From: Terriglobia bacterium
GTDB lineage: Bacteria > Acidobacteriota > Terriglobia > 20CM-2-55-15
Reading direction: 5' to 3'
NCBI GenBank assembly: GCA_036496425.1
Contig: DASXLG010000330.1
Coordinates: 1 to 63,751 of the forward strand
Length of the DNA: 63,751 nucleotides
The notes beneath the pieces are model-generated. The model saw nothing but the letters and a program-made list of their open reading frames with translations, made no database searches and had not been told where the DNA came from. How positions within the stretch are numbered: position 1 is the first letter of the stretch; every line of letters begins with the position of its first letter. This document shows positions 46,195 to 61,791 of the stretch, piece by piece. The position numbers and the translations under genes are program-made.

Positions 46195-46206
46195 AGGATC
46201 TCATTG

Positions 46207-46277
46207 CACCATTGCAACATTGGAAGTTTCTGCAGTTCTAAATTTGAAATGCAGCAACTTCTAATGATGCAATGGTA
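46207..46277. repeat. Imperfect 28-bp inverted repeat with 8-bp tandem units
   Basis: Arms 46207-46234 and 46250-46277 pair at about 24 of 28 positions around a 15-base loop. The left side is made of CATTG-starting 8-mers (CATTGCAC, CATTGCAA, CATTGGAA from 46203). It lies between the convergent cupin gene and the HAF-repeat gene and may serve as a bidirectional terminator, or be a small mobile or replication-slippage repeat. Confidence 0.7.
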
Positions 46278-48894: not shown

Positions 48895-49243
48895 TTTTTT
48901 CTTTTCTGCCTTACCTCCCGCAGTAAGCCAGAGACTTTTTTCTTTTCTGCCTTACCGCCCACGGTAAGCCAGAGAGTTTTTTCTTCTCTGCCTTACCGCC
49001 CGCGGTAAGCCAAAGAGTTTTTTCTTTTCTGCCTTACCGCCCGCAGTAAGCCAGAGACTTTTTTCTTCTCTGCCTTACCTCCCGCGGTAAGCCAGAGACT
49101 TTTTTCTTTTCTGCCTTACCTCCCACGGTAAGCCAGAGACTTTTTTCTTCTCTGCTTTACCTCCCGCGGTAAGCCAGAGACTTTTTTCTTCTCTGCCTTA
49201 CCTCGCACGGTAAGCCAGAGACTTTTTTCTTCTCTGCTTTACC
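48895..49243 (+). repeat. 41-bp tandem repeat, 8.5 copies, each terminator-like
   Basis: Eight full units of exactly 41 bp start at 48895, 48936, 48977, 49018, 49059, 49100, 49141 and 49182, with a 21-bp partial ninth. Each has T6, then C-rich bases and a 13-bp-armed inverted repeat (TCTCTGCCTTACC with GGTAAGCCAGAGA, one mismatch) around a 6-base loop. Read in tandem, each stem is followed two bases later by the next T6, as in an intrinsic terminator on the + strand. Units differ at a few positions (CTTTTCTG or CTTCTCTG; CAG, CGG or ACGG in the loop side). There is no unique spacer, so it is not CRISPR. Confidence 0.93.
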
Positions 49244-49378: not shown

Positions 49379-50029
49379 TCAGAATTTCTTCGTTACACCG
49401 AAGGTCGCGAACGTCGGATCGATGGTCAGATTGCCGTTCGAGTCGGCATCCCCGTTCTGCCAGCGGAACGCAGCGTTCACCGCAAACTTCGGTGTCAGAT
49501 ACACGTCGGTCCCCACGACAAATCCTTCGATGCTGAAGGTGTTCGATGGTTTATATGCAAAGGTATTTCCGTCCACCGAATACGATAACGTATTTGAGAA
49601 CATCAGATACCCGATCTGCGGGCCCGCCCAGACATCCGCCCTCCGCATCTGGACAAAGTGAACGTTCAGGGAAGCGAAAAGAGGTACGACATTCAGCTTC
49701 TGAGACAGAGCGGTATTCGGCGCGCTGGAGCTGATGAACTGAATATTCATTCGCGTGTACGCAAGAGCCCCGTCGATGCCAAACCAATGGCTTAGCCGGT
49801 ATTCGGCATCACCGCCCACGCTTGGAGACGAGCCCTGAACGTGGAGTCCAACCGTCCCGAAGGAGGTCGTATCAAACGGTTCATTATCATGCAGGACGTA
49901 GCGGCCGGCCGGCCCTGTCCATAACCTTCCAGTAAAACCGCGGTCTTCCGACTGGGCGGAGGTCGTCACTGCCATGACCACGATCCCGAGTAAACCTGCA
50001 AGAACTGTTAACCAAGCACGCTGTGGCAT
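49379..50029 (-). CDS. Outer-membrane beta-barrel protein
   Basis: A 216-residue protein with a signal peptide (about 1-25), then alternating strands of an eight-stranded OmpA/OmpW/OmpX-like barrel: 'VGGDAEYRLSHWFGIDGAL', 'ASLNVHFVQ', 'VGTDVYLTPKFAVNAAFRW' and a final 'FGVTKKF' with C-terminal Phe. AAGGA lies before the ATG. It is the first gene past the T6SS cluster on the same strand, 128 bases after tssA, and its transcript would run towards the tandem repeats. Confidence 0.82.
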   Translation of the reverse strand: MPQRAWLTVLAGLLGIVVMAVTTSAQSEDRGFTGRLWTGPAGRYVLHDNEPFDTTSFGTVGLHVQGSSPSVGGDAEYRLSHWFGIDGALAYTRMNIQFISSSAPNTALSQKLNVVPLFASLNVHFVQMRRADVWAGPQIGYLMFSNTLSYSVDGNTFAYKPSNTFSIEGFVVGTDVYLTPKFAVNAAFRWQNGDADSNGNLTIDPTFATFGVTKKF

Positions 50030-50157: not shown

Positions 50158-51264
50158 TCATTTCCCTTCTTCAGTCTTTTTGCCCTTGGGATTGAAATCG
50201 TCGAGGCCCAGCAGACGTGCAACTTCCGTCAATTCGCCGGGGTTGCGCAAGACCTGCTGGAGCAGTTCCCCCAGCGACAGGCTGCCCCAGGCGACAGCGC
50301 GTTTGACCAGGTAAGGCGTCGGGCTGTGCGGTTCGGTTCTCATGAGATACTCCGCCGCTTCGGCCAGCATGTGATAGGCCTGGGCGCGGCTGCGGATGGG
50401 GCCGCTGATCGCGTAGTCCCGCGGATCGTTCGCTGTGTCCCGGTCCGATTTCTCTCGGATCGAATCATCTTCTCTTTCGACAAAGGGTTCGAATTTCACA
50501 TCCACTCCTCGAACATCCAACAACTCACTCACAAAATGCAGGATCGTGCGCAGCATCTCCTTCATCTGATGGAGGGCGCCTTCCTGCCTCTTATCGAAAT
50601 GAACCAATACGCGTTCGAAGCGTTCCGCTTCCTCGAGCGCATTGGTCAGTTGCTCCCGTAAATCGATATAGAAGTCGTTCGGCGTCAGATTGACGCTGGC
50701 GTCGAACTGGGTTTGCAGCAACCGCCCGGAATCCTGACCTTTGCGGACCGGTGTCTTGTCACGTGCTGCAACTTTTACCTGATGTATACCGAGTTCGCGA
50801 TCCGCCCAGGTGTATGAGCGCTCGTCTTCGGTCCTGGTGATTGCGATCAATTTCAATTTAAGAGTGAGCTTCTCATCGATCCAGGAGACCGGGGCATAAC
50901 GAAGTTCCGGATCGTCGGGATCGAGCGGCGGATACAGCGTGTCCCAGAAATTCTCCGAAAGGGCAGTCAGGACGCGGAACCCGTCCGCGACCCCGGCAAA
51001 TCCATCCAGATGGATACAGGCTTCCAGCAGCCAGGCGCCGATCTGCAGGTCCTTGGACCGCTTCTGGAGCGCCTCCAGGCAAATGGACTTCACTTCTTTC
51101 CAGTCCGCCTTTTTCAACTTCGTTTGCCAGATCCCCTGAGGCGCATTGGCATCATCTTCGCGGCGCGCCCCTTTAATCGAGTCGTAGATCTGCGAATAGC
51201 GCAGCGACTCGCCGGCCGGGCTGTCCGAAGAAACAGGTTGGATTAATGTTTGTACTTCAATCAT
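50158..51264 (-). CDS. tssA: Type VI secretion protein TssA
   Basis: Cap/baseplate-associated protein that guides sheath assembly. The 368-residue product has the ImpA_N domain (about 5-125): 'VSSDSPAGESLRYSQIYDSI', 'ADWKEVKSICLEAL' and 'FWDTLYPPLDPDDPELRY'. The C-terminal part ('AYHMLAEAAEYLMRTEPHS', 'SPTPYLVKRAVAWG') is the VasL/TssA C-terminal helical region. Its ATG overlaps the tssM stop (TGATG). It is the last gene of the T6SS set here. Confidence 0.9.
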   Translation of the reverse strand: MIEVQTLIQPVSSDSPAGESLRYSQIYDSIKGARREDDANAPQGIWQTKLKKADWKEVKSICLEALQKRSKDLQIGAWLLEACIHLDGFAGVADGFRVLTALSENFWDTLYPPLDPDDPELRYAPVSWIDEKLTLKLKLIAITRTEDERSYTWADRELGIHQVKVAARDKTPVRKGQDSGRLLQTQFDASVNLTPNDFYIDLREQLTNALEEAERFERVLVHFDKRQEGALHQMKEMLRTILHFVSELLDVRGVDVKFEPFVEREDDSIREKSDRDTANDPRDYAISGPIRSRAQAYHMLAEAAEYLMRTEPHSPTPYLVKRAVAWGSLSLGELLQQVLRNPGELTEVARLLGLDDFNPKGKKTEEGK

Positions 51265-54200
51265 CAGGATCGATCCAATGACGGCGCCCGTTCCGGAAAC
51301 GCCGGTAGAGTTATCGGTTCTTTCTTGTCCGCCGTCAAGAGCGTCAGGCGGACAAACACTTTCGTCATCATGGGATCGTCACCGGTCATCATGGTCGGGA
51401 CGATGAATTTCAACGTCTGCGGAGCCGGATCGATCAGCTGATCGAAGTCGGCAGGCACGCTGGCATGAGTGCGGAAGAATCGCAGCATCGACCAGCGTGT
51501 CGTATCCTCGAACGTCACTTTGCGGTCCTCATAGACAACGCCTTCGGCGTTTTCCGGAGCAGGAATGATGTTCGCGTCTTTGGCCCAGCGCAGCACCAGA
51601 CGCGTTTTGTCGCCCAGCACCCAGCGGCCGCGGCGCATGGTATCGCGGGCGGTGATCGTCTGGTCCCCGACTTCGAGCTGCCACTCGATGATCTGATTAC
51701 CGCCGGACTCCCTGCGCCGGTTCACGCGGAACTCCACTTCGAAATCGAACACGGGCGCAAGCGCCTTGGCATCGTCCAGAAACGGAGCAAAGAGGGCGCG
51801 GACGGAAACCATATCATCGATAAATTGCAGAACGCGCGGCCCGGAGCCGGTCCGGCCCTGAGGCCGCTCGAGGTACTTGATGATGTTCTTGTTGTACGCA
51901 TCGAACAGCTTGAAGAAGTCGCGGATCGATTGCGGATCGGCCTCGCCGCCGCGGCCGGGACCCGGGACGAACGGGAACTTTCCGGCCAGCTTCTGGTTGA
52001 ACGTGCTTTCAAGCTCGCGGAACTGCTGAACCACCGTGGCGGTCGCGATCGAATCGAACCTTTCATACACCAGCCGCCGCAGTTCGTTGCGTTTGTTCAG
52101 GAAGAAGTCCGTGGATTGTGCCGCCAGGTCCTGCGGCGAGATCTTGTCGCTGTAATTCTGCGTGGTGAGAGACGGCAGGACTGTACTTACAAACGTTTCA
52201 AGCGCTGTAACGTTGTTCGCCGGATTCTTATTGTCGTACTTCTCCAGTTCCGTCGCAATATTCTGCCACTTGGCCAGAAGCTGCGCGTCGGCCGCGCTGC
52301 GCCTTCCGGCGCGCTGGCTGGTGATGATCGAGAGCGCGGGATCCGCGTTTTCCTTGAGCCGTTTCAGGTTCTCGCGCTGGGCGTCGAGATACTGCGGCAG
52401 TTCCTTGTCGTCTTTCACGCCAAACACGACCGTGACCAGCGGCTCCGCTCCTTCCCAGCGGGCCAGACCGGCTTCATTGAACACATAAGGCGCTTTCTGC
52501 TCGAAGAGCTGCTCGACCGTGCGGAGGTGCTGGAACGCGCCGGCCAGCGTCGCCTCTGCGAGGTCGTTGTAGGCGCGGCTCATCCCAAGACGATCGAAGG
52601 CCGCAAGCAGATCGGTCAACGGCTTCGCCGTGTCTTTGAGCTGCTTGGTTTCATTCTGAACGTCCTGCTCGAGGTTGTTCGACGCCGGGACTGCAGGCTC
52701 GACCTTCTGCGCGTTCGAGATGAGCGAAACCATGTTGGCTTCCAGGCGATTCAACGCCATCACGCGCAGGCGGTTCTGCAATTCCGGGTTGAAGGTCGTC
52801 AGCCCGCCGGCGATGAACGCATTGTAAGGTTCCACGAGCTGCTGGGCCTGCTGCAAGCCGGGCAGATCCCAGGCGAAGCGCGATCCCTGCGGCGCCGCCG
52901 TCCGGATCCTGCGTCCGCTGGCCTGGGCCATGAACCGCTGATTGAGGAAATCTTCCAGTCCTTTGCGCAACGCCAGCAGCGCGGCGGACGGCTTCATCAT
53001 GTTGTCGGCGGTCTGGAGAATCGGGCCGGTCAGCGAACTCTGGTAATTCTCGAGCGTGCTGCGCATCGAATCCACATTCTCGGCCGCCATGTCCTCGAGC
53101 TTCATGCGCGCAGCGGGGCCGAACAGGGTCGACATCTGGATGGCATCGAGTAGCGCCGCATACTCGGATCCAGGAGCGAAACCCGGCTTTCCAAGCCACG
53201 CCAGTTCGGGCTTTGAGAACGTCTGATTCAACTGATCGATGGTGCCCATGAGGGCCCGATAGGGCGCCGGATCGCTGTCGGCAGTGGTCGGCTCCTTCGC
53301 CAGCGTATCGAGTTCGGCCTGCAGCTCATCGAGCTGCATGACCGGCAATTCGCGGTCGGCGACGGCATCGAAAAACTTCTGTCCCAGCACCTGCTGTTTG
53401 TCGGCGACCGCTTGTTTTACCTTGTCGACATTGATGACGTCCTGCTGGCTGGCCTTGAGCGCACGCAGATAGAAATCGGCGTTCTCGTAGAAGGCAGGAG
53501 GAAGTTCCGTGCCGTAAATGAATTTCACCAGCTTGCCGAGCGTTGGGAGATCGCCCGATTCCGGCATCGCTTCGAAGTTGTACATCGTAATGTACGGTTC
53601 GAGCTCTTTGACGCGATCGACATAGCGGCGAAAGGTCTGGAATTCAGGCAACGAGGCCACGCCGGCCGGGTGATAGGCCGTATCGGCGGGGGGAGCGGGA
53701 GGCGCCATTTCCTGGGCTTCCTGAAGATGTTCGGTCAGATTGAGGTAAATGGATCCGAGAACGATCTTACTGAACGTCAGATTCATGGACTGGTCCAGGC
53801 GCTCATCCAGGCTGGTGAACCATGAACCCGGCAGCCAGAAGCTTCGCAACGTCGCGGCATTGATCTCCTCCATTCCCATCAGAATCTTGGTGGGATCGAC
53901 GCCTTCGAGCCGCTGCAGAATTTCCGCCGCCGTCAGCTTGCCGTTGTTGGATTTTTCGACATCGCGAACCTGAGTCAGATCCTTTTCAACCTGCGCCATG
54001 ACAGGCTCGAACGCCGCAGTCTCCTGTTGAAGCCGGTTTTTCGAGAGGAAGAGCGCGAGACTGCCGAACAGCAGAAACAGAATGCACGCCACCTGCCCGG
54101 CCAGCGCCCAGCGATTTCTGGCGAGAACCGACCGGAAGACCGGGTGCGCCAGCGGATGTTCCGGAAAGATTTTTTTCTCGAAAACATGCTTCACGAAGAC

Positions 54201-55427
54201 CGGCTGAGGTTCGGCGGCGGCTCCGGCCGACGGCGTGTATTCGCCTCCCAGGGCGGTATTCACCGGAGCATCGAGCTGCGCGTCACCGCAGAAATATAGC
54301 CCGCGGAACAGAAAGCTTTCGTGGTGCGCGCTCTCCTTGAAAAGATGATTCAGGTAGCCGCGGACCGGCTCGATCAGAGTCTGGAACTCAGCGGGGAAAA
54401 GAAAAACGCCGTCTGAATCCTCGACCGTGTCGCTTTCCGCGAAAATTTCGATCTGAGTTTTATAGATCGTGTTGTTCAGATTCTTGAAGGCTTCATCCAC
54501 CCAGTCCGGCACGTACGCGGCGTGCACCGAGTACGGATTCGACCACCCGAACATGTCGTCCCTGAGGTTCTTCGGAAGCTCGCTGACGTAGCTGCGGAAT
54601 CCCGAAATGTGATCGCACTTCGTGATGAACACATAGACCGGGAAGGTCATGCCCAGCATCTTCTGGACGGACCACATTTTTTCGTAGATCAGATCCGCTT
54701 TGCGGCGGAGATCTTCGTTGCTGAGCTTGTTCGGTCCGATCAGGTCGTCGACCGGAATGGCGGCGATAAATCCGTCGATCGGACGTTCCGGACGATTCCG
54801 GCGGAGGAGCGACAAAAAAGTTCTCCAGCCGATATCATCGGACGCGCGGCCGTCATGCGACGAAACCATGCTGCCGTCGACGTCGAGCACGACGCCGTTG
54901 GTGAACAGCCACCAGGTCACCGGCTTTCGAAGCTCGAAAGGATCGCCTCCGACCCGTCCAAAGGGCTGCGGCAAACCGACGTGGTCCAGCAATGTCGTCT
55001 TTCCCGAGCCCGCTTCGCCGGCCATCACGAACCAGGGCACACGATAGCGGAAATCGCGGCCCGGAATCCGGTCCTTCAGCAGTTTAATGGCTTCCTTGAA
55101 CGAATGCGGAAGAGCGCCGGAATGCAATCCGAAACGATGCTTGATCCGGGTCCACAAGCCGGGCTTGTGGGGAACTGCCGCGCCGGCAGAGGGCTCGGCG
55201 CTGTGGATCGCGGCGCCAGCCTTGCGGGCCGAGCCTTCAGCGCCTGCCCTGTATTTCTCGTACTGCTTGTCCAGCGCACCGCGCTGTTTCAGCGCGGTGC
55301 TCAGCGTCTGCGACGCGCTGCCTTTGCGCGAACTCCTGATGATCAGAATCACACTCGCGGCGATTGCCGCGATCAGGACTCCGACTGCGCCAAGGATGTA
55401 CGGCAGAAATTTCGTCAGTTGCGCCAT
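51264..55427 (-). CDS. tssM: Type VI secretion inner-membrane protein TssM (IcmF)
   Basis: Core of the T6SS trans-envelope complex with TssL and TssJ. The 1387-residue protein has an N-terminal transmembrane region (about 7-30; a single clear helix), a cytoplasmic GTPase-like domain with Walker A 'GEAGSGKT' (137-144), a transmembrane helix at about 438-460 ('QVACILFLLFGSLALFL') and a large periplasmic part with ImcF-related and C-terminal TssJ-binding beta domains ('RRGRWVLGDKTRLVLRWAKD'). Full length. Four-base gap from tssL and one-base overlap with tssA. Confidence 0.95.
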   Translation of the reverse strand: MAQLTKFLPYILGAVGVLIAAIAASVILIIRSSRKGSASQTLSTALKQRGALDKQYEKYRAGAEGSARKAGAAIHSAEPSAGAAVPHKPGLWTRIKHRFGLHSGALPHSFKEAIKLLKDRIPGRDFRYRVPWFVMAGEAGSGKTTLLDHVGLPQPFGRVGGDPFELRKPVTWWLFTNGVVLDVDGSMVSSHDGRASDDIGWRTFLSLLRRNRPERPIDGFIAAIPVDDLIGPNKLSNEDLRRKADLIYEKMWSVQKMLGMTFPVYVFITKCDHISGFRSYVSELPKNLRDDMFGWSNPYSVHAAYVPDWVDEAFKNLNNTIYKTQIEIFAESDTVEDSDGVFLFPAEFQTLIEPVRGYLNHLFKESAHHESFLFRGLYFCGDAQLDAPVNTALGGEYTPSAGAAAEPQPVFVKHVFEKKIFPEHPLAHPVFRSVLARNRWALAGQVACILFLLFGSLALFLSKNRLQQETAAFEPVMAQVEKDLTQVRDVEKSNNGKLTAAEILQRLEGVDPTKILMGMEEINAATLRSFWLPGSWFTSLDERLDQSMNLTFSKIVLGSIYLNLTEHLQEAQEMAPPAPPADTAYHPAGVASLPEFQTFRRYVDRVKELEPYITMYNFEAMPESGDLPTLGKLVKFIYGTELPPAFYENADFYLRALKASQQDVINVDKVKQAVADKQQVLGQKFFDAVADRELPVMQLDELQAELDTLAKEPTTADSDPAPYRALMGTIDQLNQTFSKPELAWLGKPGFAPGSEYAALLDAIQMSTLFGPAARMKLEDMAAENVDSMRSTLENYQSSLTGPILQTADNMMKPSAALLALRKGLEDFLNQRFMAQASGRRIRTAAPQGSRFAWDLPGLQQAQQLVEPYNAFIAGGLTTFNPELQNRLRVMALNRLEANMVSLISNAQKVEPAVPASNNLEQDVQNETKQLKDTAKPLTDLLAAFDRLGMSRAYNDLAEATLAGAFQHLRTVEQLFEQKAPYVFNEAGLARWEGAEPLVTVVFGVKDDKELPQYLDAQRENLKRLKENADPALSIITSQRAGRRSAADAQLLAKWQNIATELEKYDNKNPANNVTALETFVSTVLPSLTTQNYSDKISPQDLAAQSTDFFLNKRNELRRLVYERFDSIATATVVQQFRELESTFNQKLAGKFPFVPGPGRGGEADPQSIRDFFKLFDAYNKNIIKYLERPQGRTGSGPRVLQFIDDMVSVRALFAPFLDDAKALAPVFDFEVEFRVNRRRESGGNQIIEWQLEVGDQTITARDTMRRGRWVLGDKTRLVLRWAKDANIIPAPENAEGVVYEDRKVTFEDTTRWSMLRFFRTHASVPADFDQLIDPAPQTLKFIVPTMMTGDDPMMTKVFVRLTLLTADKKEPITLPAFPERAPSLDRS

Positions 55428-55431
55428 GTGC

Positions 55432-56196
55432 CTACCGCGACAGCGCTTCGATGCGAGTTGTAATTCTGTCCAGTTCCGCTGTCGAGTTCACCCAGATCGA
55501 TCGCGAGATGAAGAAATAGACGACAACCATCACAGCCAGCAGAATGAACCAGAGCTTCACCTGCGGCACCTTGCGTCCGGCGCCTTCTTCGACCGTGTGA
55601 AGATACGCTTCCGGAAACAGCTTTTTCGTGTCCTTATGAAGCTCGGGCTGGCCGTGGAATATGAAGGTGAATAATTGCCGGCGATAGTAATCGATCCTGC
55701 CGCGGTCGTTGTTCGCCCAATATTTGCCGCGGAAGCCGAGCATGATGGCAAGCAGATAGATCGTCGCCAGGTCCTTGTACATCGGATCGGGCGTCTGCAG
55801 AAGACGGTCGAGCCGGTTGAAGAATTCTTCGCCTGCCACGCGGGTGCGGAACAGGCGGTATTCGATCAGATGCGTGTTCCAGGCCTCCTTGCCGATCCAT
55901 TCGAGCTGGTGCAGGAGGATCTCGTCGGCGAGCGCCGCCATCACGTATTGCGCCTGGGTGTAGATCCCGGTGTAATCGGCCCCACGGCGTCCGGCGACCA
56001 GCGCCTCCTGTTCCATGACGGCGATCACGCGATCCGCGACCGCGATCGCCGCGCGCTCACCCGGCGTCTGCTCCGGCGCGCCGCCGGCATCGAGCGGCGT
56101 ACCCGACTTGATCAGCCGCTTGAGCTTGATCATCTCGCCGTAGAAGTCGCGGAACTGGAGCAGAAGGAGAGACGTACTCTCTTCGACAGCGCTCAT
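55432..56196 (-). CDS. tssL: Type VI secretion inner-membrane protein TssL (DotU)
   Basis: A 254-residue TssL of the short type. The cytoplasmic domain has 'DEILLHQLEWIGKEAWN' and 'TRVAGEEFFNRLDRLL', the C-terminal part a single transmembrane helix (about 212-235, 'LWFILLAVMVVVYFFI'), so it is tail-anchored. There is no OmpA/peptidoglycan-binding extension. Its ATG overlaps the tssK stop by four bases. Works with TssM and TssK. Confidence 0.93.
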   Translation of the reverse strand: MSAVEESTSLLLLQFRDFYGEMIKLKRLIKSGTPLDAGGAPEQTPGERAAIAVADRVIAVMEQEALVAGRRGADYTGIYTQAQYVMAALADEILLHQLEWIGKEAWNTHLIEYRLFRTRVAGEEFFNRLDRLLQTPDPMYKDLATIYLLAIMLGFRGKYWANNDRGRIDYYRRQLFTFIFHGQPELHKDTKKLFPEAYLHTVEEGAGRKVPQVKLWFILLAVMVVVYFFISRSIWVNSTAELDRITTRIEALSR

Positions 56197-57524
56197 GGTT
56201 TGACGTACAGGATGATATCGGCGGGACGCTTCGCCTCTCCAGCCTCAGGATTGAATACTTGAAGCGGCTCGCCCAGCTCGATGTACAGCGGATCAAACTT
56301 CACCGAGTAGAGCGCGACTCCGGCCGTCGCCACCAGACCGAGTTCCTGATCCTTGTCGACGCGCTGGCGCTGCGGTCCGAGAATGCGGCGCGTCATCATT
56401 CCTTCGATGCGCGGCTGGGATCCGATGATGCTCTTCTCGAACCACTCGGCCACCGAATCTTCCGTCTGCCCGACATTCGCGCGCACGCCGATGGTTAATT
56501 TCTCACGCATCCAGACGGCGAGCAGAGGCAGGTTCCAGCGGCCCTTCTGGTACGTGAACGAGATCGCGTTGTATGCCTCGTGAATGAAATCGAGCATCTT
56601 GAACAGGAAGTCGCGAATCTGGATGAAGGTCGCCCGCAGATCGTCGTGATTGTACGGGGCAAGCATTGGCGGAACCATGCCGGGACCCAGCGAGGAAAGC
56701 TCTCCGGACACCAGGCATAAAGCCAGATACAGCGTCAACGGATGCGCCGCTCCCGTATAAAGCGCGGCCTCCAGATGAGGCAAGCCCAGGACAAGCGACT
56801 TGATGGTCTCCTTCATTTCCACGAACGCAGCGCCTTCGGTAGCGAGCGCCGGCGAGCGGGTCTGCTCCGAGAGAAAGACCGCCTTCTGCCGCAGACGCCT
56901 CGCTACAGAGGAACACATATCACCCAGAGGAGAATGGAGCGGAACCTGAACCGTGGGCGTGATGAAGTCCGTCAGCGTGTAGGTCTCGTCCTTCAACGAA
57001 ACCTGGGCCACAGGAAATCCGGAATACTTCTTCGGAATCGAGTCTCCCGCAACAATACTCAGCTTCGGCCGCAGCCGCGGAATCCGCAGTTCGCTTTCGC
57101 CGGTATTCTCGTCGACGGTGGGAATGCCTTCGATCGAGCCGTAGCGGGGAAGATCGCCTTTGATGGGAGGTTCGCCCAGTTTCCGCGAAGCTACAACAAG
57201 ATTGAGCGTCACCGGATGCTGCTTCATGTCGTCCGCCATTGGCGTGAGATCGAGTTCCAATGCGTCCGATTCCTGGCTGTCGCGTGAAACGACCAGGCCA
57301 TCCGGCATAATCCCTTCGAGTTCCGTGATGCGGTAGGTGCCGCTGACAAGGAGGACCGTATCGTGCCTGAGATGCGTCAGTCCCCAGTGAAACGGAGCCA
57401 CCATTCTCAGGTGATACGACAGCAGCTCTTCCTGGCGCAGACTCAGTTGCTGGAAATGCTGCGGCGCCAGCAGCATTCCTTCATGCCACTGGATCGCCTC
57501 GGGAAGTTCATGCGCGCCGGCCAT
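56193..57524 (-). CDS. tssK: Type VI secretion baseplate adaptor TssK
   Basis: A 443-residue TssK, which joins the baseplate to the TssLM membrane complex. Family start 'IQWHEGMLLAPQHFQQLSLRQE' region, then 'YHLRMVAPFHWGLTHLRHD', and in the C-terminal domain 'LPLLAVWMREKLTIGVRAN' and 'QPRIEGMMTRRILGPQRQR'. Full length. It starts six bases after tssJ and overlaps tssL. Confidence 0.94.
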   Translation of the reverse strand: MAGAHELPEAIQWHEGMLLAPQHFQQLSLRQEELLSYHLRMVAPFHWGLTHLRHDTVLLVSGTYRITELEGIMPDGLVVSRDSQESDALELDLTPMADDMKQHPVTLNLVVASRKLGEPPIKGDLPRYGSIEGIPTVDENTGESELRIPRLRPKLSIVAGDSIPKKYSGFPVAQVSLKDETYTLTDFITPTVQVPLHSPLGDMCSSVARRLRQKAVFLSEQTRSPALATEGAAFVEMKETIKSLVLGLPHLEAALYTGAAHPLTLYLALCLVSGELSSLGPGMVPPMLAPYNHDDLRATFIQIRDFLFKMLDFIHEAYNAISFTYQKGRWNLPLLAVWMREKLTIGVRANVGQTEDSVAEWFEKSIIGSQPRIEGMMTRRILGPQRQRVDKDQELGLVATAGVALYSVKFDPLYIELGEPLQVFNPEAGEAKRPADIILYVKP

Positions 57525-57530
57525 CTCGAC

Positions 57531-58004
57531 TTACTCCTGCTTCGCGGTGAAGGCCCGCTCGCCTAAATCGATCGTGACATTCTTATAGGGATCCAGCTTC
57601 GCGCGATTGTCGCCAGGCACGATGTAATTCGCAAAAACCAGGGCCGCTCTGGCGCTCGGCTTCAGCGGAAGTTTCTGGTCCTTGACCCTCTGGCCTGGAA
57701 TCCATTCCCAGTACCAGGAATCAAACCCCTTCGGATTGTCCTGGCGAAACTGATCCCGATTCATGAACCAGTCTTTTGCGGCCGTCTTTGTCAGCATCTC
57801 CAGCAGCTTCTCGTCATATACGAGCAAAAATTCCACCGCGACCGGATTGTTCATATTGGCGTTCGGCGCGACGTGCGCGCGGAATTCGATGTCGCCGCCA
57901 AACAATTTCCGGGTCCGCTCGACATTTTTCCGGACTGCGCACGAGCCTGTTCCCAGCAACAGAACTGTCGCAAGGAAGACAAATCGCCCCGCTCGTTTCC
58001 TCAT
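57531..58004 (-). CDS. tssJ: Type VI secretion lipoprotein TssJ
   Basis: Outer-membrane lipoprotein that anchors TssM. Start at ATG 58004 (MRKRAGRFVF); a TTG three codons earlier is less likely. The 157-residue product has a lipoprotein signal with lipobox 'LGTGSC' (Cys22), then a beta-sandwich with 'NPVAVEFLLVYDEKLLEML' and 'ALVFANYIVPGDNRAK', typical of TssJ. A promoter candidate lies about 40 bases upstream. First T6SS gene of the row. Confidence 0.9.
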   Translation of the reverse strand: MRKRAGRFVFLATVLLLGTGSCAVRKNVERTRKLFGGDIEFRAHVAPNANMNNPVAVEFLLVYDEKLLEMLTKTAAKDWFMNRDQFRQDNPKGFDSWYWEWIPGQRVKDQKLPLKPSARAALVFANYIVPGDNRAKLDPYKNVTIDLGERAFTAKQE

Positions 58005-58045
58005 GTCGTGCAAGTCTTTTGCAATCCGGGCCTTAACGCGTTGGC

Positions 58046-58074
58046 AGTATATACCGTCCTCGGAAAGCCCGCAA
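58046..58074 (-). promoter_or_regulatory. Candidate sigma70-type promoter for tssJ
   Basis: Read on the minus strand, TATACT (complement of 58046-58051) lies 17 bases from TTGCGG (58069-58074). The -10 matches TATAAT at 5 of 6; the -35 is weak (3 of 6). The predicted start would be about 35 bases before the tssJ ATG, in the 130-base gap after the kinase gene. This suggests the T6SS genes can be transcribed apart from the triad. Confidence 0.35.
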
Positions 58075-58134
58075 CATCTAGTAGCTACAGATCAAACGGG
58101 TTCAACGGATTGAAGCGCGTTGGCGTGGATTTCT

Positions 58135-60219
58135 TTAGCGCCGGAGGCGCGACATTCCTACGATGCGTTGAAGATAATTTGTGAATCGGACCTCCCGATA
58201 CTTCAACATTTCCGAGCGGGCCTGATGAATCTCCTTCGCTTGCTTCGCAACCCAGGAATTTCCCCGGTCAACAACCTGACGCAGCCGGTCTTTCCGCTGC
58301 TCCAGCCGCCGGTGGACGGCATCGCGTTGCAATTCCAATCGCTGGTGACGCCGGTCGCGAGTCTGGCGGATGCCCAGGATTTTATTCCGGGCGCGCCAGC
58401 GAACGAACGATTCGGAACGGTGAATCGCACGGCGTTCCATGTCGTATTTTTTGCGGATACGCAATCGGTCCTCGGATGAAATGGTCTTTGGTGGCCCCGC
58501 CTGAGACAGTTCCTCGGCATGTTTCCGCCATTGCTCGAATTTCTTCCGTTCCCTTCCCCGCAACCCTTCCGCACCGATATTCGCAAGAAATGCGCTTTCC
58601 AACAGAAAGTCATCGTGCTGGGCCTGCAGCCGCAACAATAGCCGGGCCGCCTCACTGGCTTCCGCAACTTCGAGCGTCTTCCGGCGGACATTCAGCTCAT
58701 CGATCCACGATGCCAGCGTGCGTTTGACTTCGGCAATGCGGTCCTGCTGCCGGCGAACCCGGGCGCCATCCTTTGCCGTCAACCGCGCCATTTCCTGCGC
58801 TTCCTTCAGATCGACCGCGGACATCCGCTTCGCCACGCGGCCGACGCCGAACCGGAGAGCATTATGACGGTAACGCTTCAACTCCAGCAGGAACCACACC
58901 GCCAGTTTCGCGCGGACTTCATCCATCGCGATGTAGGAAAAGCCAAGACACGTTGCCGTACACAGAAGCCCCGCCAACACGACCACGCCGGTTTCCAATC
59001 CGGGCAGAACTCCGCGGGCCGCAAGCGCGATCAGCGCCACCATGAAAGCCGCGTAAGAAACCGTCAGCGCCCGTTCCGGCGCCACCGGCGGGTGCAGAGG
59101 AATGGCATCCGGCAAAGTCACCGGTCCCTCTATAGCGCTGCCCCCCGCGTGAATGACAGAAGGCGTTTCAGCGGGCCGGTCTTCGCTAGCGGCGGCCGGT
59201 TCGATGGCAGGCGCCCGAACGGCCGCCGGCTTTGGCTGTACGAAAAGATCGAGCTGATTCTCGCGCGACCAGCCCGGCAGCGGAACGTGACGCGGCGTGC
59301 GCTTCCTGGCGGGCGCGCCGATGACATCGGCCGGCGATGCGATCGACGAGAGCCGCATCCCCAGATAAGACGTGAACAGCGGCAGATATTTCTGAACCCG
59401 ATCATCCGCCACGTGCTGCAGATTCCGCATCAGGCGTGAAAACCGCGGCTGATCGAAGTCTTCCTTCTGAAAGAGTAGATGCTCCTCGCCGCCGCCGTAC
59501 CGCCGCCACAGACTCGGATCGATACTGAGCGCCGTCAGCGTGAGATAGACCGCCCAACCCGAAAAGTTGTCGACGTGTGGACCGAAGTCCTTCTCGGTTC
59601 GCGCGGGATGCTGATAGTTGCGATGGCCCACTTCATGACTGACCGAACCTGCGAAAGCCGGCACGAACATGCCGTCGTAGTCGATCAATCGGAAATCTCC
59701 GTCCGCAATCAGCACATTTCCGTGTTGAAGGTCGCCGTGGGCGATGCCGTGCTTCTTCAACGCGGAAAGCATTTTGAGCCAGCGCTCCGCCAGATTCGCC
59801 AGCGCCGTCGGCTTCTGGAGATTGGCTTCGATGACTTCCTGAAACGTGGAGCCTTCGATCCACTCCATTTTTAATACGGGATACCATCGGCCCCGCACCC
59901 GAATTCCCTTCTCCAGAAACCGGAAATCGACCGTATAGGGAAGTTTCGCGGTTTCAAGCTGGCGGCCGATTTCCTCATAGCGCTGTTTGTGATCGGAGAA
60001 ATCGCGAAGGAAGCAGCGAACGGCCCAGCGCTTCGATCCGGTGCGGATGCTGTAGACGCTTGCAAAACCGCCGGTGATGGGCCGTGGAAGCCCGAGCGCC
60101 GTGACATCGGAAATCCCGTCGCGCAGGTCGGGATCGTCAAAGTTCAAGCGCGGGCTTTGAACCGCTTCGTTGTAATCCTGGGGCGTCGGCCATGCTGCGG
60201 CCTGAGGCAGTACCTTCAT
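58135..60219 (-). CDS. TerY-P-triad-type protein kinase with membrane segment and coiled coil
   Basis: A 694-residue Ser/Thr-kinase-like protein. Kinase domain about 40-310: Gly loop 'ITGGFASVYSI', catalytic loop 'HGDLQHGN' (His161, Asp163, Asn168) and 'LIDYDG' (Asp180 or Asp182) in the DFG place. The position of the VAIK lysine appears to hold Arg68 ('WAVRCF'). A Pro-rich linker, two adjacent hydrophobic helices (about 385-430) and a long basic coiled coil (about 465-690) follow. Its start overlaps the PP2C stop by four bases. With the PP2C and vWA genes it forms the kinase of a TerY-P-like triad and is next to tssJ. Confidence 0.85.
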   Translation of the reverse strand: MKVLPQAAAWPTPQDYNEAVQSPRLNFDDPDLRDGISDVTALGLPRPITGGFASVYSIRTGSKRWAVRCFLRDFSDHKQRYEEIGRQLETAKLPYTVDFRFLEKGIRVRGRWYPVLKMEWIEGSTFQEVIEANLQKPTALANLAERWLKMLSALKKHGIAHGDLQHGNVLIADGDFRLIDYDGMFVPAFAGSVSHEVGHRNYQHPARTEKDFGPHVDNFSGWAVYLTLTALSIDPSLWRRYGGGEEHLLFQKEDFDQPRFSRLMRNLQHVADDRVQKYLPLFTSYLGMRLSSIASPADVIGAPARKRTPRHVPLPGWSRENQLDLFVQPKPAAVRAPAIEPAAASEDRPAETPSVIHAGGSAIEGPVTLPDAIPLHPPVAPERALTVSYAAFMVALIALAARGVLPGLETGVVVLAGLLCTATCLGFSYIAMDEVRAKLAVWFLLELKRYRHNALRFGVGRVAKRMSAVDLKEAQEMARLTAKDGARVRRQQDRIAEVKRTLASWIDELNVRRKTLEVAEASEAARLLLRLQAQHDDFLLESAFLANIGAEGLRGRERKKFEQWRKHAEELSQAGPPKTISSEDRLRIRKKYDMERRAIHRSESFVRWRARNKILGIRQTRDRRHQRLELQRDAVHRRLEQRKDRLRQVVDRGNSWVAKQAKEIHQARSEMLKYREVRFTNYLQRIVGMSRLRR

Positions 60220-60953
60220 TGGACTGAGATCCTCAGCAGCGTGACGTCGTCGTTTCTCATGCCCGCATCGCGCAGGGACTCGATCGATTCCTCGAACTCG
60301 CCTGCACAGCTGTAGGCGCGGTCGATGACCGCGCTTGCGCGCTCACAGAGCGCGCCTACAGTGGAACACTGCAGAAACCAGCACGCGATCGCATCCGTCA
60401 TCAGGTAGAAGACATCGTTCGGCTGCCAGGTACCCTGCGCCCGGCAAATGTGCGCAAGCTCGTCGTTCCAGTTTCGCTTGTTGCTTGAAAGCAGCGGCGG
60501 GCGGTTATTGAAGTCTCCGGCCTCCGTCATCGGAAAGGCGGTGAGGAGACGGCCGTCTCTTACCTGAAACAGGCAGCTGTCGCCGATCGCCGTCGACTGC
60601 CACGTACCTTCCAACACCGTCAACCCGAGCACTGTGGCGAACGCTCCATGGCTCAGCTTCTCTTCGGCGTACCATGGCAGCGCCGCTTTCCCGATCGACG
60701 AATTCCACTGCTGCTCGAGCTGCGGCAGATGCTTCCGGATCTTTTTTTCGCTGAGATAATCGCGGCAGTAGGCGCGCGTCAGAAGCTGCGCCCACGAACG
60801 CGCAAACGAGGTTTCCGTTGCGCCATCCGCTACGGCAAAGCGGAACAACTTCGAGTCGAGGTCCAGCGGCGCGGGAGGCCAGAACGCATCTTCGTACTCT
60901 TCAGCGGTATTCCCGCGTTTCGGAGTCCAGAAAATGCGGAGCGAAATCCGCAT
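60216..60953 (-). CDS. PP2C-family protein phosphatase
   Basis: Start taken at ATG 60953, one base after the vWA stop (TGAAATG). The 245-residue protein has the metal-dependent PP2C motifs 'FAVADGATE' (Asp43), 'GAFATVLGL', 'AIGDSCLFQVRDG' (Asp125), 'YLMTDAIACW' (Asp187) and 'RNDDVTLLRI' (Asp235/Asp236). It is expected to reverse the kinase at 58135. Residues 198-215, between the last two motifs, are encoded by a palindromic element inserted in frame (60310-60361). Confidence 0.87.
   Translation of the reverse strand: MRISLRIFWTPKRGNTAEEYEDAFWPPAPLDLDSKLFRFAVADGATETSFARSWAQLLTRAYCRDYLSEKKIRKHLPQLEQQWNSSIGKAALPWYAEEKLSHGAFATVLGLTVLEGTWQSTAIGDSCLFQVRDGRLLTAFPMTEAGDFNNRPPLLSSNKRNWNDELAHICRAQGTWQPNDVFYLMTDAIACWFLQCSTVGALCERASAVIDRAYSCAGEFEESIESLRDAGMRNDDVTLLRISVQ
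60310..60361. repeat. Palindromic element within the PP2C gene
   Basis: A 52-base element with perfect 11-bp outer arms (CTGTAGGCGCG / CGCGCCTACAG) that enclose two further perfect hairpins: CGCGGTC-GAT-GACCGCG (60317-60333) and GCGCGCTC-ACA-GAGCGCGC (60337-60355). The inner hairpins share bases with the outer arms, so alternative folds compete. It keeps the PP2C frame open and adds about 18 residues. Confidence 0.85.
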
Positions 60954-60954
60954 T

Positions 60955-61791
60955 TCATCGAAGACTGGTCGGCCGCGTTCCGATATCGAGAAACCGGATG
61001 ACCGAGACCATGTCTCCGTTGAAAACAAATCCGCGAGGAGAGCTTCCGACCGGAATGCCTTCCTCCATGGCGATGTTCTTCATGTAATCCGGAAGCGGGC
61101 TCGACATGCGGAAGAGATTCCGCGCGTAATCATCCGGCAGCATGGACTCATCGCCCGGAAACTCAATCGGCGATGCCGGAGTCGATGAAACGTGGATATT
61201 AAAAAGGAGGAGCTGGCCGTCTTCGGTTTTCAGATCTTTGAGCGCCATGGCGGCGCCGGCCGGGTCGCCGTCGGTTGCGGCTCCATCGGTAATGTTGATG
61301 ACAATCGGAGGGAAACTTGTCGGCTGCTCGTTCACCCAGCGTCCCAGGATCGATTGGGCCCGGCCCATCGCCTGACACATCGGCGTGCCGCCGCTGGCGA
61401 TGGAATCGAACCAGACGGGGAATTTGATCGTCTGGTCGACCAGGCCGCCCGCCCCGTCATCGATTTTCTTGGCGCGTTCTTCGACACGCGCCGGCTGGTT
61501 GGCGATTTCTCCGATTGGAACAAGTTCTTTGCCGGCAAGCGGGCCGCTGAAAGCCGGACCGACGGCCGCGCCATAACCGATCACGCCGACGTCGTAGTAA
61601 TCGCGCACGCCTTCCGATTTAGCGCACTTCAGCACGAGGTTCTGGAGCAACCTGTTAATAATGGTGGAAAGCGCTTCGGCCTTGCTCTTGCCCGCCTCTC
61701 CTCCCCAACCTTCCTGCATCGATCCGGACTGGTCGATGAGAAAAATAAAACACGACGGTTTTACTCTGCTGATCTCTGCAACGTAGGACAT
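60955..61791 (-). CDS. vWA domain protein, TerY-like
   Basis: Start at ATG 61791, after GGAGGG; a longer frame upstream is not conserved. The 278-residue protein is a single von Willebrand A domain with the metal-site motif 'LIDQSGSM' (Asp20, Ser22, Ser24), a Thr in 'SGGTPMCQAM' and the Asp of 'NITDGAATDGD'. This is the TerY-like member of the vWA-PP2C-kinase triad. It has no signal peptide, so it acts in the cytoplasm, perhaps as a phosphorylation-dependent scaffold. First gene of the cluster. Confidence 0.88.
   Translation of the reverse strand: MSYVAEISRVKPSCFIFLIDQSGSMQEGWGGEAGKSKAEALSTIINRLLQNLVLKCAKSEGVRDYYDVGVIGYGAAVGPAFSGPLAGKELVPIGEIANQPARVEERAKKIDDGAGGLVDQTIKFPVWFDSIASGGTPMCQAMGRAQSILGRWVNEQPTSFPPIVINITDGAATDGDPAGAAMALKDLKTEDGQLLLFNIHVSSTPASPIEFPGDESMLPDDYARNLFRMSSPLPDYMKNIAMEEGIPVGSSPRGFVFNGDMVSVIRFLDIGTRPTSLR

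Follow-up and report, generated by a model that had tools for sequence, protein, structure and literature searches.

TerY-P is a known mobile cassette tied to defense and stress, in which a TerY-type vWA protein, a PP2C phosphatase, and a kinase are encoded side by side, and it has been viewed as a metal-sensing phosphorylation switch (PMC11090510). The TerY-P triads of CoCoNuT systems possess zinc-ribbon kinases and the stand-alone antiphage TerY-P systems possess OB kinases (PMC11090510); antiphage activity of the OB type is credited to Gao et al. 2020, as cited in PMC11090510, and is also reported in PMC7699616. TerY-P is active against T7-like phages (PMC7699616), and the majority of Pseudomonas aeruginosa cells that carry it outlive infection (PMC10889362). 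In the accounts of TerY-P consulted, the founding 2012 paper not among them, the kinase tails described are of the OB and zinc-ribbon types only. A triad of the same kind is encoded by yegL-pphC-yegI of Escherichia coli, where YegI is a membrane Ser/Thr kinase that is dephosphorylated by PphC (PMC13232886). The type VI secretion system (T6SS) offers a further comparison, since the PpkA/PppA/Fha set of the Pseudomonas H1-T6SS includes a membrane Ser/Thr kinase and a PP2C phosphatase near T6SS genes, and PpkA carries a vWA domain of its own (PMC3224232).

The vWA-PP2C-kinase triad of the window

The window (the whole stretch of DNA analyzed, 63,751 nucleotides) is the entire contig C330 of a Terriglobia bacterium assembly of 6.2 Mb in 407 contigs, which is 95% complete. 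The triad and the tss genes of the window all lie on the minus strand (Table 1). The ATG of the PP2C gene is one base past the vWA stop codon (TGA-A-ATG), and the kinase and PP2C genes share four bases (ATGA) at the PP2C stop. The coordinates and identities of these genes, their overlaps, the gap after the kinase gene, and the order tssJ-tssK-tssL-tssM-tssA agree with the preliminary description of the locus.

Table 1 Features of the triad, the adjoining tss genes, and the gene that follows them
Feature	Coordinates	Strand	Evidence
TerY-type vWA protein, 278 aa, MIDAS DQSGSM	60955..61791	-	PADLOC TerY
PP2C-like phosphatase, ATG 60953	60216..60953	-	PF13672 and PADLOC PP2C
Atypical protein kinase, 694 aa	58135..60219	-	PF00069, STK_OB, hydropathy, AlphaFold, PDB kinase folds
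Gap between triad and tssJ, 130 bases counted from the tssJ ATG	58005..58134	-	
tssJ, lipoprotein; start ATG 58004 or TTG 58013	57531..58004	-	AlphaFold and Foldseek
tssK	56193..57524	-	TIGR03353 2.6e-62 (NCBIfam)
tssL (DotU)	55432..56196	-	PF09850 1e-26
tssM (IcmF), divergent	51264..55427	-	TIGR03348 1.4e-66
tssA	50158..51264	-	TIGR03363 6.4e-86
Outer-membrane beta-barrel protein after tssA	49379..50029	-	PF13505 1e-08

Each of the triad proteins has a match among the PADLOC models for TerY-P (that of the kinase being confined to its kinase domain), which bears out the earlier label "TerY-P-like." The vWA protein matches the TerY model at full length (2.9e-107, model positions 1 to 277 of 277), and its MIDAS motif is followed by TP and ITDG motifs. 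It is 84% identical to the copy in a genome of the same family (G009), and its nearest named relative is a Candidatus Sulfopaludibacter MAG of the same GTDB family (84% identity). The phosphatase matches the TerY-P PP2C model of PADLOC (2.9e-28) and PF13672 (3.9e-07), with its acidic residues in place (ADGA, TDA, and NDDVT). The locus thus combines a TerY with a MIDAS motif, an adjacent PP2C phosphatase, and an adjacent kinase of the TerY-P family. Its protein set and gene order are those of OB-kinase TerY-P, and the window proteins share 50% (TerY), 38% (kinase domain), and 28% (PP2C) identity with TerY-P proteins of E. coli. CoCoNuT TerY-P likewise comprises vWA, PP2C, and kinase proteins, but the window kinase has no CxxC anywhere in its sequence and therefore no zinc ribbon, and no McrBC-like CoCoNuT genes were present among the neighboring genes examined. 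The triad had been put forward as the best candidate for an undescribed system; TerY-P has, however, been both described and phage-tested (PMC11090510, PMC7699616, PMC10889362).

The genes surrounding the triad form no clear defense island, and no ter gene was found among the proteins scanned next to it, which cover part of the window. An empty-site comparison showed that the context of the upstream hydrolase in relatives is not common with the window. The base composition of the triad is close to that of the tss genes (GC, 0.55 to 0.60), giving no sign of a recent foreign origin. A short palindrome-like repeat of about 75 bases, at about 46195 to 46277 of the window, has matches on both strands and many copies in the genome.

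Architecture of the kinase

The window kinase matches PF00069 (1.8e-08) and, much more strongly, the PADLOC STK_OB model (3.4e-82), the latter over the kinase domain only (residues 9 to 271; model up to position 267 of 562). The kinase domain spans residues 1 to about 300, and its model matches kinase folds in the PDB. Several motifs are altered: AVRCF replaces the usual lysine strand, accompanied by HGDLQHGN and DYDG. These alterations are largely common to the other triad kinases and to the OB-type E. coli kinase, and therefore give no sign of decay. Invariant residues are common to the 10 triad kinases compared, in keeping with the placement of the window kinase in the TerY-P family.

Beyond the kinase domain, a disordered linker (residues 305 to 388) leads to two predicted membrane helices at about residues 383 to 422, which appear both in the AlphaFold model and in the hydropathy table (whose residue numbers include a 15-aa 5′ extension). 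The AlphaFold model ends in a coiled-coil helical hairpin (residues 433 to 548 and 582 to 673). The C terminus is thus predicted to consist of membrane helices and a coiled coil, in contrast to the OB fold of OB-kinase TerY-P, which was not found in this tail.

YegI offers an architectural counterpart. The E. coli YegL-PphC-YegI set resembles the window triad in having a vWA protein, a PP2C phosphatase, and an inner-membrane kinase with a membrane and coiled-coil tail, and the C-terminal module of YegI matches the kinase tails of four other TerY loci (L043, L045, L051, and L065). In these four and in L116, an HhH core lies between the coils. The window kinase and its relative in G006, a genome of the same family, keep the coils and a terminal Y..V.F..YL motif, and the HhH core is absent from both. 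BLAST comparison of the window kinase, PP2C, and TerY with YegI, PphC, and YegL gave no significant direct match; the link between window and YegI runs through the four intermediate tails. As judged from sequence comparison and the predicted structure, the window kinase appears to have a YegI-like membrane-coil-HhH architecture from which the HhH core has been lost.

Other TerY-type triads carry kinases with much larger C-terminal extensions (L048:3397-5940, L058, L059, and L062), and the tail of the L048 kinase resembles WD40 repeats. In an Anaerolineae triad (L043:1104-5391), three genes that match no Pfam family lie between TerY and PP2C.

Type VI secretion genes of the source genome

The preliminary description had correctly recognized a T6SS membrane complex operon downstream of the triad, but the window carries only the tssJKLMA half of a T6SS. 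Genes for tssB, tssC, hcp, tssE, tssF, tssG, clpV, and vgrG are found on another contig of the same genome (C35). TssK and TssA score above the curated NCBIfam cutoffs and TssM below its own (225 bits versus 388); the window TssM is 31% identical over 1,351 aa to that of G012. TssJ matches no Pfam family and is about 30% identical to the product of the gene preceding tssK in two other genomes. Its AlphaFold model (pLDDT of 79.6, and above 80 from residue 41 onward) finds solved TssJ structures as the first Foldseek matches (6ixh, 3zhn, 4a1r, and 3rx9; best E value, 2e-6).

The tssB, tssC, and tssF products of C35 share 53 to 68% identity with those of G012. The T6SS gene order is unbroken in G012 (tssJKLMABC-hcp-EF) and in G242 (tssJKLMABC-hcp-EFG-vgrG), and from the clade shared with these two genomes, the tss genes of the window and those of C35 most likely belong to a single T6SS. 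Past tssA and the beta-barrel gene, a 41-base unit is repeated in tandem in 8.5 copies (window 48895 to 49243). The array recurs, at about 90% identity, on several other contigs, and one such copy opens C35, immediately ahead of the second half of the T6SS (L069:1-440). Given these copies elsewhere, the array is a plausible recombination or assembly breakpoint.

C35 also encodes a PAAR-like DUF4280 protein and a LysM/peptidoglycan-binding protein. Its VgrG (L069:11936-17497) has 1,853 residues, about 1,200 of which precede the baseplate-hub domain, and its gene is preceded by one for a coiled-coil protein. A third contig of 3.2 kb (C269, locus L031) holds a second, canonical TssK and a second VgrG-like gene; no further genes of such a second T6SS were seen, and the genome has only one TssC. 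In G242, a ubiquitin-like E1-E2-JAB cassette (L122:13264-15727) is situated about 1 kb before tssJ of the same-clade T6SS.

The window had been described as devoid of an FHA gene, and this holds: nine FHA matches were found genome-wide, none of them on C330, C35, or C269. Unlike in PpkA/PppA/Fha control, no FHA protein is thus encoded with the T6SS on these contigs.

Linkage to type VI secretion and the role of the triad

A search of GTDB species contigs identified 27 TerY loci in many phyla, and the gene order TerY-PP2C-kinase is common to many phyla. TssK was undetectable in 21 of these 27 TerY-bearing genomes. Together with six loci from a survey of the phylum, 33 loci besides the window were available, and in 23 of these TerY is flanked by 5 kb or more of sequence on both sides. 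T6SS core genes were found within 10 kb at a single one of the 33, in Rahnella, and at none of the remaining 32. An orphan hcp accompanied by a Tlde1 gene lies 9 kb from the triad of Pantoea; this was not scored as linkage to a T6SS. TerY occurs in 2 of 198 enterobacterial and 2 of 369 gammaproteobacterial genomes, all four already among the 27 loci. No phage sequence matched TerY, and the plasmids with TerY are two, both cyanobacterial.

Within the phylum, 396 sampled genomes include 7 with TerY and 60 with TssK (a lower bound, as the window protein was the query); both are present in 2, against about 1 expected. In the second genome with both (G439), TerY and TssK lie on separate contigs. 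A literature search for TerY-P and type VI secretion jointly found no paper.

Close relatives show the same separation. In G009 and G006, the triad or its remains follow a hybrid histidine kinase; in G006, ilvD follows the triad kinase, and TerY and PP2C appear truncated. The G006 kinase is 44% identical to the window kinase and aligns with it nearly end to end, and TssK was not found in this 98%-complete genome, indicating that this kinase tail exists without a T6SS. Conversely, G012 and G242, whose T6SS are most like that of the window, have no triad, nor any FHA, kinase, or phosphatase gene among the scanned neighbors of the cluster. Triads away from a T6SS, which the preliminary description had named as evidence that would make the linkage accidental, thus do occur, as do related T6SS without a triad. 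With T6SS linkage absent at all but one of the other TerY loci, we read the adjacency of triad and tssJ as incidental, and consider it quite probable that the triad is a TerY-P phosphorylation switch with a membrane-anchored kinase that happens to be placed upstream of tssJ.

The one locus that counts against incidental placement is that of Rahnella (L066:2585-13279), where an OB-type TerY-P lies 670 bases after tssM-tssJ-tssF-tssG. Its kinase type is unlike that of the window, and it is situated on the opposite side of the T6SS cluster. The Rahnella cassette shares about 94% DNA identity with a cassette of E. coli (>80% coverage, four E. coli genomes), which is adjoined by type I restriction genes and an integrase in all three cases examined and by a tRNA-Leu site in two of them; no T6SS was found in the stretches around these three. 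Edges of T6SS clusters could be favored landing sites for defense-type cassettes, making the juxtaposition nonrandom without being functional. Three edges do bear unrelated cassettes, namely the window TerY-P, the OB-type TerY-P of Rahnella, and the E1-E2-JAB cassette of G242. Yet these are three incidental finds rather than the yield of a systematic survey, the same edge in G012 (tssJ side) is occupied by purC and cvpA, and neither an integrase nor an att site was apparent beside the window triad. We regard such landing-site preference as unlikely.

The preliminary description proposed instead that the triad does the job of PpkA and PppA, controlling the FHA-less T6SS of the window by threonine phosphorylation, with the vWA protein in the place of Fha. 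The triad does adjoin tssJ on a common strand across a short gap in which no terminator-like site was found, so that read-through from the triad into tssJ is possible; a weak promoter-like TTGCGG-N17-TATACT in the gap was read by eye and falls under the scan threshold. A membrane kinase with a PP2C phosphatase also follows the PpkA/PppA pattern, the T6SS contigs lack FHA, and Rahnella provides a second TerY-P beside a T6SS, albeit with another kinase type. However, the window differs from PpkA/PppA/Fha in its separate vWA protein, its missing Fha, and its TerY-P-family kinase, and a replacement of Fha by the vWA protein finds no support. PpkA has a vWA domain itself, a point absent from the preliminary description. 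The kinase and phosphatase genes show no conserved linkage to T6SS, as seen in the survey, in the two same-clade T6SS, and in the TssK-less G006 with its same-tail triad. A triad was found in none of five genus-mates, two of them with a canonical TssK, and the kinase tail is accounted for by a T6SS-independent family. T6SS control by the triad is, in our view, quite unlikely. That a TerY-P with an HhH-less coiled-coil membrane kinase was recruited in this lineage to gate its FHA-less T6SS, a phage or stress cassette that would also arm secretion, we hold to be very unlikely.

For a TerY-P switch placed incidentally beside tssJ, the described systems suggest how it might operate. At the inner membrane, the kinase would associate with the metal-binding vWA protein, and a stress or infection signal, received through either the coiled coil or the vWA protein, would turn the kinase on. 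The kinase may then phosphorylate itself and further targets until reset by the PP2C phosphatase. By analogy with its relatives, the window triad probably serves in stress or phage defense.

The neighborhood alone would have suggested a new system of T6SS control, and the survey corrects this reading. Membrane-anchored coiled-coil kinases with YegI-like tails are common among the TerY-P triads of several phyla, and the poorly understood YegL-PphC-YegI set of E. coli is thereby tied to the antiphage TerY-P family.
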